This document shows, piece by piece, positions 2,707 to 31,825 of a stretch of DNA of 34,472 bases. Within the stretch, counting starts at the first letter, position 1, and every line of letters begins with the position of its first letter. The position numbers and the translations under genes were made by a program. This stretch comes from Candidatus Thorarchaeota archaeon (lineage in GTDB: Archaea; Asgardarchaeota; Thorarchaeia; Thorarchaeales; Thorarchaeaceae), in the NCBI GenBank assembly GCA_016839605.1, contig JAEOTX010000043.1, positions 1 to 34,472 on the forward strand, written 5' to 3'. The notes under the pieces are model-generated. The model made no database searches. It was not told where the DNA came from and saw only the letters and a list, made by a program, of their open reading frames with translations.

Positions 2707-3906
2707 TCATTCCATGTAGCTTAGCACTTTGACCAGAGTCTTTGATGCGAAATCTACAGGAACTGGCAGTCTACATCTAATCAAATGCTTCAGATATCTG
2801 GGTCCAGCTAAGCGCATACACTGGTCGGTTATTATGTCGGAGGGCATAACCTGGTCGGCAATCCTAAGAATTCTGAGGGCAGCATACAGCTCCTTCCCTA
2901 TCTCCTCCCTCCATGTTTCCTCATAGACTGCAAGCGAAACCCCATCTTTCAAATGACTGACGACGGCTTCTCCAGCTATTTCACCCCCAACTAATGCTGT
3001 GGGAATGCCTCCACCATTGGAGGCCATGACATGACCTGCCGCATCCCCGACAAGAACAGCATTTTCTGAAAACGTTCTATCCACAGGCCCGCCAACAGGA
3101 ATGATGGCTCCAACTCGAGAAACGATGTTTGATTTCTTGGTGCGTGGGGATACAAGTGGATGAAACTGAATGAATCTTCGAAGATACTCCTTCAGCGGCA
3201 CATCCGGGACTCCGAAAAGTCGTCGCATGCCAAAGCCAATGTTGGCTGTGTCATCACCCTTGGGAATAATCCATGCATACCCACCTGGAGCAACTTGTTT
3301 CCCAAAGTACATCTCTGTGGTCTTCGAGTCGCATTCTATCTCAGTGACGACATAGTTTAGAGAAGGACAGAGGTCTCTTCCAGGGTTGTGATAGTGATTG
3401 CCCATTGACTTGGATATGAGAGAGCTTGGTCCATCAGCACCTATCACTACACGGGCATTCATCTCTGCCTTTTTACCCGCTTGCCTCACAATGAGCCTGT
3501 TCGATTTTGATCTCTCAATCACTGTCGAATCCAGCATTATCTTAGCGCCTGCATCCTCAGCTTGATTTGCAATACGCTGGTCAAAATTCGTTCTGTCAAT
3601 AACATGAGCATCAAGTTTGAAATAGAACTCGTTATTCAAAGGAGAAGCGAGCATGAGTCTGCTGGTCCGATTAGTGATGAGCCTATTCGGGATTCTGACA
3701 AGACGTGATGCTCTTGAGGAGTCACGCAAAAGGTCCTGCATCTCTCTGGAAGTAGGCAAGAACTCACCACAATGGATTGGAACTCCTATCTCTCTCCTTC
3801 TGTCAACTACCAGTGTCTTAAAGCCTGCAGCTGCAACCACTCTAGCTGCTGTGCAACCTGCAGGACCTGCACCTACGACAATGACATCATAGGAGTTCTC
3901 AGCCAT
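2707..3906 (-). CDS. geranylgeranyl reductase family FAD-dependent oxidoreductase
   Basis: N-terminal YDVIVVGAGPAGCTAARVVAAAGFKTLVVDRR Rossmann motif; VLVGDAAGHVMASNGGGIPTALVGG FAD motif; start MAENSYD at 3906. Confidence 0.88.
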   Translation of the reverse strand: MAENSYDVIVVGAGPAGCTAARVVAAAGFKTLVVDRRREIGVPIHCGEFLPTSREMQDLLRDSSRASRLVRIPNRLITNRTSRLMLASPLNNEFYFKLDAHVIDRTNFDQRIANQAEDAGAKIMLDSTVIERSKSNRLIVRQAGKKAEMNARVVIGADGPSSLISKSMGNHYHNPGRDLCPSLNYVVTEIECDSKTTEMYFGKQVAPGGYAWIIPKGDDTANIGFGMRRLFGVPDVPLKEYLRRFIQFHPLVSPRTKKSNIVSRVGAIIPVGGPVDRTFSENAVLVGDAAGHVMASNGGGIPTALVGGEIAGEAVVSHLKDGVSLAVYEETWREEIGKELYAALRILRIADQVMPSDIITDQCMRLAGPRYLKHLIRCRLPVPVDFASKTLVKVLSYME

Positions 3907-3978
3907 AACATAGGGCGCATCCGTCAGACTAAAAAAAGAGTTGGTTGCTCCCACAATGACCCGTGTGAGGCTCTCCAG

Positions 3979-4653
3979 ATGATATCGATACAAGTTGAAG
4001 GACTTACCAGACGCTACGGATACAGAGTCGCTCTAAATGACATATCGTTCGATGTCCCAGTCGGTGGTGTTCATGCCCTATTCGGGAACAACGGTGCAGG
4101 GAAGACAACGCTCATGCGTATCATATCAACACTCCTGCAGCCCCACGCTGGAAAGGTGGCAGTCCTTGGATTTGATACGAAAGAAGACCCCATAGAAGTC
4201 AGAAAGAGGATTGGTGTTGTCGGAGATAAGCCGCTCCTGTATGGCGAGTTGACTGGTAGGGAGAATCTGAATTTCTATTCAGACCTTTACGATCTAGAGA
4301 GTTATACAGCTAGTGCCAGCATAGAAGACCTAGCTGAACAATTCGACGTCAAACGTTGGTTAGATGAACCAACAAAGATACTCTCCACGGGACTGAGGAA
4401 GAGATTCGATATAATCAGAAGCTTGCTACATAGTCCTGACTTGTTCTTACTCGACGAACCATTCTCAGGGCTCGACAAAGACTCCACTCAGGTGTTCAGA
4501 GACTACATTGAAGAAAAACGACAAGACAGAACCGCCATTGTAACTACACACAACTTGTCATTGGGATCGGAGATATGTGATGATTTCATCACGCTGAGAA
4601 AAGGTGAGATTGTAGGCCAAGGGCCAATTTCAGAGTTTGATGGAAACATTTGA
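3979..4653 (+). CDS. ccmA: ABC transporter ATP-binding protein, CcmA-like (heme exporter)
   Basis: Walker A GNNGAGKTT, LSTGLRKRFDI signature, LFLLDEPFSGLD Walker B; directly upstream of ccmB/ccmC. ATG at 3979. Confidence 0.85.
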   Translation: MISIQVEGLTRRYGYRVALNDISFDVPVGGVHALFGNNGAGKTTLMRIISTLLQPHAGKVAVLGFDTKEDPIEVRKRIGVVGDKPLLYGELTGRENLNFYSDLYDLESYTASASIEDLAEQFDVKRWLDEPTKILSTGLRKRFDIIRSLLHSPDLFLLDEPFSGLDKDSTQVFRDYIEEKRQDRTAIVTTHNLSLGSEICDDFITLRKGEIVGQGPISEFDGNI

Positions 4654-4663
4654 GGTGAATGAA

Positions 4664-5386
4664 ATGGGTTCTGGTCTATCATATGCACTTGCAATTGCCA
4701 AGAAAGATCTAGTCACTCAGATGAGGAAGCGATTCGAAGCATTCTCTATGTTCCTGTTCGCGATTATTGCAGTCTTTGTATTGGGTCTTGTTCTGAGTTC
4801 TGCCACCTTTATTGTGCCAGATCCAGAGACAAGACTAATTGTCATGACCGAGATTGGGGCTGGAATGCTGTGGGTAGTAGTGTTTTTCACAGGCATGTTC
4901 GGATTCTCCCCGGTCTTCATCTCAGAGTCTGAAACTGGCACATTGAAGGGATTATCTCTCGCACCCATACCAGCTTGGTCAGTATACCTTGGAAAGGTGA
5001 TCTACGGGTTCATTCTCATGGGTCTGGTCGAGCTGTTCCTGGTACCAATCTCCATGGGACTTCTGGGCTTCACTTTTGCAGCTGACGTGTCACCCATTTT
5101 CATACTTGCAACGTTCTGCCTGGGGACATTAGACTTAGCAGCTGTTGGGGCGATGGCATCAGCTCTGACAATGCCAGCTGAGTCCAAAGCCACGGTCTAT
5201 CCTATAGTGTATTTCCCAACTGCTACTACTGCGCTCATCCTTTTAGTTGAAATCACGAGAATGTTGGCTATCGGAATTCCTTTAGTTGGACCAGGAATCG
5301 TTGATCTATTGATTATCCTTTCAGGACATGTGTTTGCAATGGTAACACTCTCAGCCACAGTGTTCCATTTCACACTTACATCTTGA
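4664..5386 (+). CDS. ccmB: heme exporter membrane protein CcmB
   Basis: Six-TM-like hydrophobic protein (KKDLVTQMRKRFEAFSMFLFAIIAVFVL...) between CcmA and CcmC; ATG at 4664 with GAGGTG RBS. Confidence 0.8.
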   Translation: MGSGLSYALAIAKKDLVTQMRKRFEAFSMFLFAIIAVFVLGLVLSSATFIVPDPETRLIVMTEIGAGMLWVVVFFTGMFGFSPVFISESETGTLKGLSLAPIPAWSVYLGKVIYGFILMGLVELFLVPISMGLLGFTFAADVSPIFILATFCLGTLDLAAVGAMASALTMPAESKATVYPIVYFPTATTALILLVEITRMLAIGIPLVGPGIVDLLIILSGHVFAMVTLSATVFHFTLTS

Positions 5387-5457
5387 AACCATAGGAGAAG
5401 CATAAGGTTCATATTGACTTCAATTATCGAAACGAGCCCAGCAAGGGATGTGAAGAA

Positions 5458-6129
5458 GTGAACACAAAACGGATGGTTCTCTATATCCTCTCACTGATAG
5501 TATCTTTCGTCTATCTCTATATGGTATGGATTTTCGCACCGCCGGAGTTGAACCTTGGGGAAAGGATTAGGATCTTTTTCCAGCACGTGGCTCCAGCCTT
5601 GATAGGCTATCTGGCATTTGGAGTCACTCTGGTTGCGGGAGTAATGTATCTCTGGAAGCAAGACCTAAGATACGATTTGATTGGAGCAGCATCCATCAAG
5701 ATCGGACTGGTCTTCACAACAATTACCTTGTTAAGTGGAATGATCTGGGCTAACGCCAGCTGGGGTGTATACTGGAATTGGGACCCCAGAGAAACGACTA
5801 CACTCATCTTGTGGATCGCATACGCATGTCTAATTGCCTATCGTGCGTCAGTAAATGACAGAGATGTCAGAGCGCAATATGGATCCGTCTTTGGAATCAT
5901 TGCGTTTCCTGCAGTCATTCTTAGTTATATTTCAATCCGCATTTGGGAAACCCTACATCCCATCGTAATTACTGGCGAGGGTCTTCAGATGGGCCCAGAG
6001 CACGGCATGACGCTAATGGTCAGCCTAATTGCTGTCGGTCTTGTCTATCTGCTGATACTTGATCTCACATATCGAATCGATTCGGTTGCTGAAAGACTGA
6101 TGGAGCTTAGAATGCAGAGGAGTGGATAG
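5458..6129 (+). CDS. ccmC: cytochrome c biogenesis protein CcmC
   Basis: WWD-type signature WGVYWNWDPRETTTLILW; flanking histidines in FFQHVAPALIGY and WETLHPIV. GTG start. Confidence 0.93.
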   Translation: MNTKRMVLYILSLIVSFVYLYMVWIFAPPELNLGERIRIFFQHVAPALIGYLAFGVTLVAGVMYLWKQDLRYDLIGAASIKIGLVFTTITLLSGMIWANASWGVYWNWDPRETTTLILWIAYACLIAYRASVNDRDVRAQYGSVFGIIAFPAVILSYISIRIWETLHPIVITGEGLQMGPEHGMTLMVSLIAVGLVYLLILDLTYRIDSVAERLMELRMQRSG

Positions 6130-6130
6130 T

Positions 6131-6517
6131 ATGCAGTCACCGGACATAATTCTCTCAAATGAACTCTTCACAGTTTCAGTAATACTTTGGGTAGGTACCT
6201 TCACACTACTGTTCTGGCTCTTCATTCGGATGCATAGTCTTGACAAGGCAATTAAAACACTAGCACTGGCAGAGAATCAGGAGTTGAACTCTCAGTCAAT
6301 GTCTAACAAGATTGTTGCTTATGTCGCATTAATCTTGGAACTGATCGGTGCTGCTATCCTCTTGTTAGGGCTTATCGCATGGGTTCCAATCCCGCTTTTC
6401 CCTATGTCAATTGTTATTTGGGTCGGGGTCTTCATTATGCTGCTGTGGCAAATGCTAGGCGTATCTTCTCTTGAAGACTCTCTGGCTACGCTGTCCTTGG
6501 AATCATTTCAGGAGTGA
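6131..6517 (+). CDS. small membrane protein in CcmD position with two related TM modules (CcmD-like duplication)
   Basis: Located between ccmC and ccmE; SVILWVGTFTLLFWLFIRMHSLDKAIKTLAL and SIVIWVGVFIMLLWQMLGVSSLEDSLATLSL align as an internal repeat. Confidence 0.6.
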   Translation: MQSPDIILSNELFTVSVILWVGTFTLLFWLFIRMHSLDKAIKTLALAENQELNSQSMSNKIVAYVALILELIGAAILLLGLIAWVPIPLFPMSIVIWVGVFIMLLWQMLGVSSLEDSLATLSLESFQE

Positions 6518-6523
6518 GCATTG

Positions 6524-6919
6524 ATGAAGAAGAAGACAAGAATGATGTTAATTGCTGGTGTCTTAGTAGTGGTCGTAGGGCTGGTCTCATATGCAATGCT
6601 CAATCTATTTGTTGATCCATACATCAGCGTTGACGCGGTGGTGGACAATCCTGATGCGTACAGAGGTAGAGTCATTCAGGTTAAAGGCACACTCCAACCA
6701 GGATCGATCTCTATCAATCCTGGAAACGTGACACTAGTGTTGGAGGGTAACAACTCAACTATCCTTGTAATAGTAGACACCGACCTTCCTTCGTTGACAG
6801 ACGGCCAAGAGATGGCAGCCATAGGTGTACTTGAAGATGGGGAGAATTTAGCCATCCGAGCCTCACAGATACTCACTCAGTGTTCAAGTAAATATACAGC
6901 TGTGACAACAACAGACTAA
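6524..6919 (+). CDS. ccmE: heme chaperone CcmE, CXXXY variant
   Basis: N-terminal TM anchor followed by an OB-fold-like domain (YRGRVIQVKGTL...VLVIVDTDLPSLTDGQEMAAIGVLEDGENLAIRASQILTQCSSKY); CSSKY takes the place of HXXXY. Confidence 0.85.
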   Translation: MKKKTRMMLIAGVLVVVVGLVSYAMLNLFVDPYISVDAVVDNPDAYRGRVIQVKGTLQPGSISINPGNVTLVLEGNNSTILVIVDTDLPSLTDGQEMAAIGVLEDGENLAIRASQILTQCSSKYTAVTTTD

Positions 6920-7548
6920 TCAGATGTGCGCCATTCATCTCCGAATCTTGCCTTCTCATCGGGAGAACGCGGTTCGTAATGCCACGGAACAGGTAGCTTG
7001 GCCACGGTATCCGAAAGAGCAGCAACTCGTTTACCCATCTGCTCCGCCATTCGCATGGCTTCCATGTCACTTCTAATATCGCCGACGTTCATAGCAAATC
7101 CAACTGGCCAAGAAACCCCGCCAGGAACAATCATTTCTTTGACAAGCATGAAGAAAATCAATTGATTAAGAGCAGTATCCGTACCTGATTTCCTTGCTAC
7201 AACGAGCGCAGCTCCAATCTTCCCCTCTAGGTGAGCAAAGCGACCAACTCGGTCCATGAAATTCTTCATCTGAGAGGTGACACTCGCATAATGCACTGGA
7301 CTTCCAAATATGATGCCTTGCGCCTCTGACATCTTCTCAATAATTGGATTTAGACCATCATTCTGAATGCACTTGCCCAGCTCATAGCATTCGAGACCAT
7401 GTTTGCAAGGATTAATCTCTACATCAGCAATCTCAATGAAATCTATGTCGGCACCGAACTCTTCTGCTGCATGAAGAGCTGTTTCAACAAGAATAGAAGT
7501 GTTGCCACCCTGTCTATTGCTTCCGGATATGCCTAGGACTCTTGCCAT
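6916..7548 (-). CDS. NADPH-dependent FMN reductase / iron-sulfur flavoprotein-like
   Basis: VLGISGSNRQGGNTSILVETAL N-terminus, CKHGLECYELGKC cysteine cluster, IIFGSPVHYASVTSQMKNFMDRVGR. Confidence 0.85.
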   Translation of the reverse strand: MARVLGISGSNRQGGNTSILVETALHAAEEFGADIDFIEIADVEINPCKHGLECYELGKCIQNDGLNPIIEKMSEAQGIIFGSPVHYASVTSQMKNFMDRVGRFAHLEGKIGAALVVARKSGTDTALNQLIFFMLVKEMIVPGGVSWPVGFAMNVGDIRSDMEAMRMAEQMGKRVAALSDTVAKLPVPWHYEPRSPDEKARFGDEWRTSD

Positions 7549-7634
7549 ATTGAAACCTTCAGAGGAATTGGACTTGCGTGATTTTCAGATTGTAACCCAG
7601 TTCTTAAGTTTCGCTATAAGAAGAAAGAAAGCAA

Positions 7635-7664
7635 ATGCCACTAAAGTTGTCATTTTAGTGGCAT
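7635..7664 (-). terminator. stem-loop downstream of ccmF
   Basis: ATGCCACTAAA-8 nt-TTTAGTGGCAT (perfect 11-bp stem); on the minus strand it is followed by the pyrimidine-rich TTTGCTTTCTTTCTTC. Confidence 0.65.
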
Positions 7665-7687
7665 AGATTGTTCTCAAATGGTCCATA

Positions 7688-27620: not shown

Positions 27621-27902
27621 TTAGTGACATTGTGTGCACAATGCTAGAGGTACTTGACCAGTCATAAGATAGTGAAAAGCTAGAAAGCCGATAAACCCAA
27701 TGACTAAGACGAGCAGGATTATTACACCCCTTCTCAATTGTCTCAGCTCCTGACCTGCCGTCGCAAATCTTCTTCTGGATTTTATAACTTGCTGCTGTCC
27801 TTTACCTTCAATGATGCACTCATTAATTAGGCATTCACTTGTTTCAGCGCAAGTGGTTGCGCCGATTTGCTTGTTTATAACTCTGTAAGGAAGAGTTGAC
27901 AT
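27621..27902 (-). CDS. single-TM protein ending in CTQCH (putative monoheme or truncated cytochrome)
   Basis: RRRFATAGQELRQLRRGVIILLVLVIGFIGFLAFHYLMTGQVPLALCTQCH-stop; positive residues before the TM predict an extracytoplasmic CXXCH. Confidence 0.55.
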   Translation of the reverse strand: MSTLPYRVINKQIGATTCAETSECLINECIIEGKGQQQVIKSRRRFATAGQELRQLRRGVIILLVLVIGFIGFLAFHYLMTGQVPLALCTQCH

Positions 27903-27914
27903 GGCGACTCATTG

Positions 27915-28685
27915 GTGTCAGATGGTATTCATATTCAGACACAGGGCCTTTCCAAGGATTTTGGCTCTGTTATTGCGCTGAGAGACCTCGACCTTGCTGT
28001 TCGGAAGGGTAGTGTCTTTGGCTACCTTGGACCAAATGGAGCAGGGAAGACAACAACTGTCAGAATTCTTTCCGGTCTTTTGAAGCCGACTTCAGGGACT
28101 GCAACAGTCTGTGGTTTTGATGTGCATTCTGAACGAAATAGTATCAAGAGAGTCACAGGACTTCTGCCCGAATCACCGGGACTTTACTCGAAGTTATCTG
28201 CTGTGGAGTTTCTAGAGTTCATTGGAGCCTTGAACAATACGGGCGGAGAATCACTCCGTAGACGGATTGATAGTCTTCTGGGAATCCTAGGACTTGAAGG
28301 AAGACAGAATGACCTCTTAGAGAGTTACAGCAGCGGTATGAAACAGAAGGTGCTTGTTGCATCGACTATGCTTCATGAACCAGAACTAGTGTTCCTTGAT
28401 GAACCTACTTCAAGACTGGATCCAGCCGCAAGTGTCCTCGTCAAAGAAATCATCCTTGCTATGGCAAAGGAAACTGATACAACATTCTTCATTTGCACCC
28501 ACATGACAGATTTCGCTGAAGATGTATGTGAGGTCATTGGGATATTGAATGAGGGAATCTTAACGACCCTAGGTGCACCGAATGATATCATCGAACAGAC
28601 AGGCGGCAATGATCTCGAAGATGCTTACCTCAAGATAGTGGGCGGTGGAATCGATCGAGAAACCCTCTTGAGCTGGAGGCATTGA
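27915..28685 (+). CDS. ABC transporter ATP-binding protein
   Basis: GPNGAGKTTTVRI, SYSSGMKQKVLVASTMLHEPELVFLDEPTSRLDP. GTG at 27915 (ORF track begins at TTG 27912). Confidence 0.93.
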   Translation: MSDGIHIQTQGLSKDFGSVIALRDLDLAVRKGSVFGYLGPNGAGKTTTVRILSGLLKPTSGTATVCGFDVHSERNSIKRVTGLLPESPGLYSKLSAVEFLEFIGALNNTGGESLRRRIDSLLGILGLEGRQNDLLESYSSGMKQKVLVASTMLHEPELVFLDEPTSRLDPAASVLVKEIILAMAKETDTTFFICTHMTDFAEDVCEVIGILNEGILTTLGAPNDIIEQTGGNDLEDAYLKIVGGGIDRETLLSWRH

Positions 28686-28686
28686 C

Positions 28687-30333
28687 TTGGTCAGGGTCTG
28701 GGCGGCCATAGCGAAAGCGGAGTTTCTTGTTCGAACTGTCAAACTCCACAAATCTCGCAAGATTCTGTATCCGCTCGCTTTTGGGATTTCACTCGCATTC
28801 GGATTATTTCTTGTTCCACGACTAGTAGGTTTCTTCTTCACAGAAGTTGGCGCAGCGTTCAAAGCAATGCTTGCGACATCTTTCCCAGGTATGCTAAGGA
28901 CGATAATGCTTGCTGTTTGGATGTTCATTCTGATTATTCCAATCTCGAACAGTCTTGAGAACGTCAAGATGGGACAGTGGGAGATCCTCTTCAGCAACAA
29001 TGTAAAGACGAGAGACCTTCTTTTCGGAACATTTGTGGGAAGAATCCCAGTCTATGGCATCTTTGTCATTGCATTGGCCCCAATAGTGGTGTCCCCCTTT
29101 GTCTTTGCGTACAATGTCTCAATACTTGGCCAGCTATTGATGTATCTAGTGATCTTCGTATTTGCAATTGTGACCATCTGGCTTTCGACAGTGTTCAGCA
29201 CAGCCATTCATGCAAAGATTGGTTCTTCCCCTCGGGGGGATGATATTGGCAAAGCATTGAGTTGGGGCCTTGTTCCACTAGTTGCGATCCCTGCTATGGG
29301 TTCAATGTATTGGACGTCTAGTGTTGTGGCCCTGCTGGACTTGGAGATCTCAATGATTCTTCCATCAACTTGGTGTGCAGATATTCTAACTTGGATTGCG
29401 ATGTACACAGGGACGCTTAGGCCATCATCAGTTATGAATCTTGAACTCTATTGGTTTGCAGTCAGTCCCATCGTGGATGTTTTGATACTAGGGATATTTA
29501 CAATGGTCGTGTTCTATGTTGGATTCAAGAGTGCAGATCGATATTTTGCATATAGTGTTAGCCAGGGAAGTCAGAAAGTTCTTAGAGCAGGGCCAGAGAA
29601 TCTATTCATCAGGGGGATTCGTAGGGCCTTCGGAGAGTATTTCGGGACTATTGTTGCTACCTCCTTCAAAGATTTTACAAGGAAACTGCAGAATATAGCA
29701 AAGTTGTCATATGGACTGTTTCTAGCTATCCTCATGCCTTTGCTCATTGGCTTCGGCCCATTTACAACCATGGTTGATGATCCGATTTTCGTTCCCGTCA
29801 TGTCATCATTGACGTTGGGAATGATATCAGGAATATTTTCGGGTGTAATATTTGGAGGTGTTGGACTTCTTGATAGTCGTGATCAGCTTTGGATCCTGAA
29901 GAGCACACCCAGAGGAGCTCAAAAGTTCATTGTAGCTAGAGTGATATCATATATGATGGTGGGAATTCCCTATGCTCTCTTTCCTGCAATATTCACAGGA
30001 GTCTTACTCAATTTCACATTGAGCGATACCCTATTGATGTGCATTTTTGTTTATTCGATAGTACTAGGAGGAATCTTCGTTGGTGTTGGGATTACAGCAA
30101 GTAATCCTTCATTTGAGGACACGTCGAGTGGTGCATTCATCATCAATCAAATTGCGACAATTCTCATCCTAATGATCTTGATAATTGTGTCAATCATTCA
30201 GGGTGTGATAGTCGCGATCACTCAAGGTGTCTTTGGTGCATCTATGCTCCTGTCCAGCATTCTCACACCGATAATTGGGCTAGTGATACTGATGCTTGGA
30301 ATGATTAGACTAAACTTCTTGGAGGCGGACTGA
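28687..30333 (+). CDS. ABC-2-like polytopic permease
   Basis: Large hydrophobic protein directly following the ATPase; TTG start at 28687. Confidence 0.75.
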   Translation: MVRVWAAIAKAEFLVRTVKLHKSRKILYPLAFGISLAFGLFLVPRLVGFFFTEVGAAFKAMLATSFPGMLRTIMLAVWMFILIIPISNSLENVKMGQWEILFSNNVKTRDLLFGTFVGRIPVYGIFVIALAPIVVSPFVFAYNVSILGQLLMYLVIFVFAIVTIWLSTVFSTAIHAKIGSSPRGDDIGKALSWGLVPLVAIPAMGSMYWTSSVVALLDLEISMILPSTWCADILTWIAMYTGTLRPSSVMNLELYWFAVSPIVDVLILGIFTMVVFYVGFKSADRYFAYSVSQGSQKVLRAGPENLFIRGIRRAFGEYFGTIVATSFKDFTRKLQNIAKLSYGLFLAILMPLLIGFGPFTTMVDDPIFVPVMSSLTLGMISGIFSGVIFGGVGLLDSRDQLWILKSTPRGAQKFIVARVISYMMVGIPYALFPAIFTGVLLNFTLSDTLLMCIFVYSIVLGGIFVGVGITASNPSFEDTSSGAFIINQIATILILMILIIVSIIQGVIVAITQGVFGASMLLSSILTPIIGLVILMLGMIRLNFLEAD

Positions 30334-30337
30334 TATA

Positions 30338-31825
30338 ATGAGAATCACAAGATTGGGCGCTTCCATCCTTCTTCTCATTATGATATCAATGGGTTCGGTG
30401 CCGATTGGCAACAACACTGTCGCAGATGTCCATTCTCCGAAATTCGATTTCTCTGTGAGTGAGGAGATCACTGGAGTTCCATATGTCTGGCAAGAGGTCA
30501 ATGGATTCTGCTTCCCCTCTGCACTCTCAATGGTATTGCAGGGTATGGGATTGGATCTTAGTCTCTATGATATATTGGCAGCGTCCGGGACTGGATTCTC
30601 AATGGTATCTATCAGTGTTGATGAGGTCATGATGTTCTCTCCAGGTGTGATGGTGCGACAGGTGCCATGGTTTGAGTTCTTCACGGACCTCTATGGTCTC
30701 GAAATGCAATTCTATCTAGATTCGGACACAGAATATGGATATAATGCACTGCAGATTTTAGGAGGCTGGGGATCGACCGCCATTGACTATAGCGATTCGG
30801 TTTTAATAACTCCGCTCAATGTCGTGCGAGAGTCCATCGATGCAGGTTATCCACTCGCAATCTCTGTAGATACATACTACCTTCCACCTGTAGATTGGGA
30901 CATCATCAGAAACTATGTTGGACCGTTAGAGCCTAATGGTGTTGGACATGCTATTACAATTGTGGGTTACAATGACACATCTCAGACTGTCCAGGTCCAC
31001 GATCCTGGCGTTGGTTTGATGGAACCATATTGTGGATATCCAGACGACGGTCGTTGGAACTATACCATGTCCTATAGCACACTTGATGATGCATGGCAAT
31101 CTTGTGGTTATGTCACTTTTAGAGTATCAAATGGTACAGGACGTGTCTCAGATTTTGAGGACAAACTTGCCTCGTATATTTCCCAGAGAATGGTTGGTAA
31201 CCGCTCAGCATATTTTGAAGGTAGTGAGAATTACTTCTACTTGGGTACAGGAGCAGATGCTTTCAGAGGGATGGGACTTGACATGACTCTGGAAGCAATA
31301 CGCGACTACTGTTATCACTATATGGAAGTTGACAAGCCGAATGCAATTCGATATCTTGGGCATAACCTTGAGGTCATGATGACAATGCAGTATCATGCAT
31401 ATAGAAGCTCCCTTGACTCGTTACCTGACCTTCTTCCATCAATAGACCTTGATGCGTTCTTGAATGAAGCTAGAGAAGCCCTCACACATATGAAGGCATT
31501 GAGTCATAATTCATCTATCACAAGTGGGATTGATGTCATTAGTCGTGACACCATTCTATACAACACATTCTTTGGAATGGCTGCAAGCTTCGAATCTTCA
31601 CATGATCTCGATGGAGCAATAAGCGAGTTCACAGAGGAGCTTGATGAAATTGCAGGCCATTTCTTTGCGATTGCAGATTCCTGGAAGGCGGCTGGTGAAG
31701 CTTTGTCTAATGAACTGGAGAGGCTACAGCCAATATTCGATGACAATCTAATAGTTGCAATTGGTGGTACAGCGAGTATCTTACTCATAAGCGTCGTATT
31801 CATGCAATGGAGGCGAAGGCGTTAG
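30338..31825 (+). CDS. secreted, C-terminally membrane-anchored papain-like / C39-like cysteine protease
   Basis: Signal-like N-terminus; WQEVNGFCFPSALSMVLQGMG (Q, C), GHAITIVGYNDTSQTVQVHDPG (H, D); C-terminal TM followed by WRRRR. Confidence 0.75.
   Translation: MRITRLGASILLLIMISMGSVPIGNNTVADVHSPKFDFSVSEEITGVPYVWQEVNGFCFPSALSMVLQGMGLDLSLYDILAASGTGFSMVSISVDEVMMFSPGVMVRQVPWFEFFTDLYGLEMQFYLDSDTEYGYNALQILGGWGSTAIDYSDSVLITPLNVVRESIDAGYPLAISVDTYYLPPVDWDIIRNYVGPLEPNGVGHAITIVGYNDTSQTVQVHDPGVGLMEPYCGYPDDGRWNYTMSYSTLDDAWQSCGYVTFRVSNGTGRVSDFEDKLASYISQRMVGNRSAYFEGSENYFYLGTGADAFRGMGLDMTLEAIRDYCYHYMEVDKPNAIRYLGHNLEVMMTMQYHAYRSSLDSLPDLLPSIDLDAFLNEAREALTHMKALSHNSSITSGIDVISRDTILYNTFFGMAASFESSHDLDGAISEFTEELDEIAGHFFAIADSWKAAGEALSNELERLQPIFDDNLIVAIGGTASILLISVVFMQWRRRR

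Follow-up and report, generated by a model that had tools for sequence, protein, structure and literature searches.

Does a protein that stops directly after a heme-attachment motif represent a genuine gene, and if so, could it be a cytochrome? This question is raised by a 93-amino-acid open reading frame (ORF) at positions 27621–27902, minus strand, of a contig (C191) from a 3.08-Mb Thorarchaeota genome bin, analyzed here over its whole length of 34,472 nucleotides (hereafter the window). Thorarchaeota are Asgard archaea and relatives of the eukaryote host lineage. Translation of the ORF (MSTLPYR...GQELRQLRRGVIILLVLVIGFIGFLAFHYLMTGQVPLALCTQCH, then TAA; C-terminal end ...GQVPLALCTQCH) confirmed the 93-residue product with a terminal CTQCH described in the original prediction, as well as its basic stretch and its one transmembrane helix (a single strongly hydrophobic segment follows the basic stretch), and no further CXXCH is encoded in the 80 nt up to the next gene (27540). 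The locus comprises the following elements:

27621–27737, minus strand: probable true coding sequence of a 38-amino-acid membrane micro-protein (MRRGVIILLVLVIGFIGFLAFHYLMTGQVPLALCTQCH), with an inferred TTG start and a TAA stop; homologs of 38–50 amino acids align from here, and a GGAG lies ahead of the TTG.
27738–27902, minus strand: N-terminal extension of the 93-amino-acid ORF (55 codons), without similarity to any homolog and containing ttataaa.
27781–27787, minus strand: TATA-like element (ttataaa), located 44 nt ahead of the TTG, read from the sequence.
27624–27638, minus strand: CTQCH heme-attachment motif, the final five codons (TGC ACA CAA TGT CAC), read from the sequence.
27621–27623, minus strand: TAA stop immediately after CTQCH, read from the sequence; relatives use TAA, TAG, and TGA.

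A first search of relatives with the 93-amino-acid protein yielded weak matches, several of which reached its last residue, and very short ORFs of the same plan could be read at weakly matching loci. A six-sequence profile run over 232 same-phylum genomes identified 11 copies of 38–50 amino acids in 10 Thorarchaeaceae genomes, covering three genera, all within the window's own family; a ten-row profile returned the identical member set. Members were clearly separated from noise (E-values of 1.7e-13 or better, about 1e-13 to 1e-23, vs 1.6e-3 or worse), and no relative was found beyond Thorarchaeaceae among these 232 genomes. Scans of genome contigs yielded Candidatus Thorarchaeota archaeon AB_25 (G223), from the same family as the window organism, as the only relative among the matches listed, and a scan of viral contigs yielded none. 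All members follow a common plan: the N-terminus is basic, a single helix follows, its end marked by an invariant His, and an invariant Gly and Pro precede the CXXCH and the stop. The window copy ends in ...LCTQCH, and C-termini elsewhere read ...LCTNCHGA (G229), ...LCTNCHGT (G223), ...SCSNCHTS (G035), ...NCFDCH (G019), and ...PCWTCHAEIAGPP (two copies in G018), with the G222 member being MKKFLKVLVLVIVIGLVVFLGIHYLLSGQLPLQLCTNCHGA. The original prediction had proposed to search for orthologs ending in CXXCH: these do end at the motif or at most seven residues past it (0–7 residues from CXXCH to stop in all eight intact copies), and the motif itself is intact in 8 of 11 copies, with one residue lost in the other three. 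Judged from these sequences, the micro-protein family is real and conserved.

The same alignment bears on the extent of the window protein, for which the predicted C-terminal part stood while the first 55 residues probably lie outside the protein. Since homologs are 38–50 amino acids long, and since a GGAG (27750–27747, nine bases ahead) and the ttataaa element precede an in-frame TTG at 27737, the window protein probably comprises 38 amino acids from this TTG, rather than starting at the ATG. With a TTG start, a normal two-way promoter region would separate the micro-gene from the divergent ABC gene (27912), and 27738–27902 would probably be a non-coding promoter region shared with that gene. 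No RNA families or tRNAs were found in the window. Beyond this region (27912–31825, plus strand), an ABC transporter pair adjoins a secreted C39-like peptidase that is anchored in the membrane at its C-terminus; paralogs of the permease are numerous in the family. A peptide processed by this nearby C39-type peptidase/ABC transporter was considered and rejected, as other micro-gene loci have different neighbors.

Purifying selection, which the original prediction had proposed to check through dN/dS, does act on the gene. Five genomes of one genus carry the ORF at the same site, upstream of a conserved 305-amino-acid protein gene, and Nei–Gojobori dN/dS ratios were 0.05–0.29 in 8 of the 10 pairs of these syntenic orthologs (one pair yielded no value because of saturated dS). 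The syntenic alignment is gapped in the flanks, vs a gapless ORF apart from one 3-nt in-frame indel. Codons of the motif Cys and His vary synonymously among relatives (TGT/TGC, CAT/CAC), and between the two G018 copies, six codon differences are synonymous and one is non-synonymous. These two copies lie on two contigs (L004/L023 and L018/L024) and are 99.5% identical over 190 nt after the ORF. Overall, at least six different gene contexts were observed for the micro-gene, one of them common to five genomes, and no conserved operon, partner gene, or redox neighbor was found across the examined loci. Upstream of the 305-amino-acid gene in G226 (L094), the TATA-like block cctgctttataatttgtgg is kept and an intact micro-ORF is absent; this syntenic site is possibly a decayed copy.

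Two features are relevant to how such a protein might hold a heme:

27660–27734, minus strand: single transmembrane helix after the basic start, from hydropathy and AlphaFold2 (residues 2–26 of the 38-amino-acid form).
27672–27674, minus strand: His at the outer helix end, residue 22 of the 38-amino-acid form, invariant in 10 of 10 aligned members.

The AlphaFold2 model was based on a two-sequence alignment and reached a mean pLDDT of 81, the tail being less certain. Because positive charge is heavier on the N-terminal side of the helix in most members, the orientation is probably N-in, C-out, with the motif tail outside. The helix-end His lies 12 residues ahead of the first Cys in the window copy (11–13 in intact members), and is possibly the second axial heme ligand. 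With no residue after the motif, the window copy has no folded heme domain with a distal ligand, so that candidates for this ligand could only be the helix-end His or another chain.

A pathway for heme attachment is encoded in the same cell, as the window includes, at 3772–9757, a Ccm set of the archaeal type, comprising CcmA, B, C, E, and F:

3772–4653, plus strand: CcmA-like ABC ATPase, adjoining CcmB, with a start probably further in; ccmA model at E 4.9e-33, below the cut-off and among many ABC families.
4637–5386, plus strand: CcmB (PF03379 over the cut-off; TIGR01190).
5458–6129, plus strand: CcmC (PF01578 over the cut-off; TIGR01191, E 3.7e-28).
6521–6919, plus strand: CcmE with the archaeal CXXXY motif (CSSKY, read from the sequence; PF03100 over the cut-off).
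7688–9757, minus strand: CcmF (PF01578, E 5.8e-28; nrfE/ccmF models).

Between CcmC and CcmE, which is the site of ccmD in bacteria, a 131-amino-acid membrane protein (6122–6517, plus strand) contains two similar segments of ~40 amino acids (40% identity) and has no Pfam CcmD match. With its CcmA-like, B, C, E (CXXXY), and F proteins, the window resembles the Methanosarcina CcmABCEF machinery, a streamlined set that is sufficient in that genus and is reported without CcmD (PMC9084895); the micro-protein is itself not part of the machinery. Regarding the length of the substrate, PMC3601427 and PMC3884852, both of which cite Braun and Thony-Meyer 2004, describe CXXCH peptides of 12 residues accepting heme from Ccm, and CcsBA, a different synthase, accepts CXXCH 9-mers and 11-mers, with both thiols and the His being required (PMC8112865). 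Ccm genes were detected in 8 of 10 micro-gene genomes vs 10 of 37 others (Fisher p 0.004, phylogeny ignored), a link that is weak within the main genus (5/10 vs 2/6, p 0.63). Of the two exceptions, G228 (93% complete, Ccm not found) no longer has the motif His, as would fit the missing Ccm, and G223 (85% complete, Ccm not found) has kept its CXXCH.

Among the options raised in the original prediction, the C-terminal CXXCH of the orthologs and purifying selection most favor a minimal membrane-tethered monoheme cytochrome. We put at about even the chance that the window protein is such a c-type cytochrome, matured by Ccm and transferring electrons, and slightly below even the broader proposal of a natural family of ~40-residue micro-cytochromes in Asgard archaea, with heme covalently bound to a bare C-terminal peptide and no cytochrome fold, acting as a relay or subunit at the outer face. 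A stand-alone micro-gene would then encode a membrane protein of 38–50 amino acids (probably 38 in the window), whose only outward part would be a ~12-residue tail terminating in CXXCH. The cell's own Ccm enzymes would attach heme to this tail, giving a membrane-tethered micro-cytochrome without a cytochrome fold, and the other heme ligand would come from the helix-end His, a second copy, or a partner protein. Single electrons could be passed at the outer membrane face, for instance from a membrane donor to an extracellular multiheme cytochrome. Helix anchor and single CXXCH are shared with membrane-anchored monoheme cytochromes c; however, a folded heme domain of ~80–100 residues is present in the known ones, whose distal ligand lies beyond the motif, where the window protein has nothing. 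A heme site without a cytochrome fold also recalls the artificial microperoxidases and short Ccm-matured CXXCH peptides described in PMC3601427 and PMC3884852 with reference to Braun and Thony-Meyer 2004, although those were engineered, and the micro-protein occurs naturally with a membrane helix as its tether. No meaningful match was obtained among solved structures, and the literature search retrieved no paper describing such a protein. If heme is attached, few natural c-type cytochromes would be smaller, and cells would be shown to maintain a conserved heme protein for which no cytochrome fold is required. The heme-dependent electron transfer of Thorarchaeota, on which few studies exist, would then also gain a component. 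Genes this short usually escape annotation, and CXXCH searches demanding a folded domain would overlook them too.

The main rival is that the C-terminal CXXCH and the helix-end His bind a metal ion or form a redox dithiol without heme, possibly in a CydX/CcoQ-like accessory subunit; a C-terminal metal or thiol site was also among the options of the original prediction. Subunits of this type are likewise single helices of roughly 30–60 amino acids, often overlooked in annotation; unlike the micro-protein, which carries a CXXCH and is found at scattered loci, they have no CXXCH and are usually encoded within the operon of their enzyme. Conservation patterns provide some arguments for a metal or thiol site: the first Cys, second Cys, and motif His are each lost in one copy, while the helix-end His, Gly, and Pro are never lost, two micro-gene genomes have no detected Ccm, and no cytochrome neighbor is conserved. 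We nevertheless consider this the less likely reading, as the spacing is exactly that of CXXCH, the Ccm recognition motif, in all intact copies, whereas a metal site could vary, and most members are found in Ccm-positive genomes.

A former micro-cytochrome that is on its way out, with selection relaxed in several lineages and possibly for the window copy too, appears less probable still, though relaxation or decay is plausible for some lineages. The three damaged motifs (CSNGH in ...LCSNGHGT of G026, CTNCP in ...LCTNCPII of G228, and RSECH in ...IRSECH of G009) are each one base change from CXXCH, so that 3 of 10 genomes display a single-base loss; two of these, G026 and G009, have lost one motif Cys each with Ccm present. 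Decay would also be consistent with the patchy distribution, including Ccm-positive relatives without the micro-gene, with the dN/dS of 0.65 between G223 and the damaged G026, and with the G226 syntenic site retained without an ORF. As for the window copy, no same-genus ortholog was found, and the syntenic region of the same-genus G002 is without a copy. However, other pairs are under strong purifying selection, and the motif is intact in most copies, including that of the window.

Much more remote is the NapC/NirT/NrfH-type anchor with its first heme, cut off by a mutation or sequencing error. The likeness to NapC/NirT noted in the original prediction holds for the architecture, i.e., one N-terminal helix and an outer-face CXXCH 10–12 residues later, as in the N-terminal region of NapC/NirT/NrfH/CymA (PF03264), but does not extend to significant homology. 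NapC/NirT proteins are about 200 residues long and bind at least four hemes, whereas the micro-protein ends with its first motif. Among Pfam families, PF03264 matches the window core best (profile positions 9–43, E 0.031, 14.4 bits, vs a gathering cut-off of 24.1), and several other members also match it below threshold. This match may be an effect of composition, since 1 of 10 shuffled decoys keeping the CXXCH tail matches the same family almost as well (E 0.11, 12.6 bits). Membership in NapC/NirT is not supported, given the sub-threshold score, a single CXXCH instead of four or more, and no full-length relative found in the family; the micro-protein may, by analogy, work like a NapC/NirT anchor. 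A truncated or decaying longer cytochrome, another option in the original prediction, was rejected: no longer version of the micro-protein was found among relatives, stops differ between them (TAA, TAG, and TGA all occur), and no NapC/NirT protein scored over the cut-off in 47 family genomes. The varied stops also exclude a shared recoding event, and recoding through the stop was rejected. Finally, the least credible reading takes the ORF as spurious, with a CXXCH arising by chance, or as an assembly artefact. Although its codon usage scores among the lowest 3–4% of gene segments, a range where short membrane proteins may likewise score, this reading is contradicted by homologs in 10 genomes and by purifying selection, and a layout common to nine other genomes makes a chance CXXCH ORF an insufficient account.

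If the micro-protein is a cytochrome, a possible electron partner is encoded in the window:

12147–13709, minus strand: multiheme cytochrome c, candidate partner (PF13435/PF02335; orthologs in 15 of 47 family genomes).

The original prediction proposed a relay to this protein, which our data did not bear out: the two genes co-occur only at the genome level and are 14 kb apart in the window, and while 7 of the 15 family genomes with orthologs or fragments are among the ten micro-gene genomes, no ortholog was found in the three others. As an electron partner, the multiheme protein is at most a possible candidate. This protein has a hydrophobic segment at each end, and its orthologs (L121–L131, L135) contain about seven CXXCH motifs. 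Most of these orthologs also have a conserved motif of atypical form, CXXCM (in the window, CXXCQ), whose proximal ligand would be unusual.
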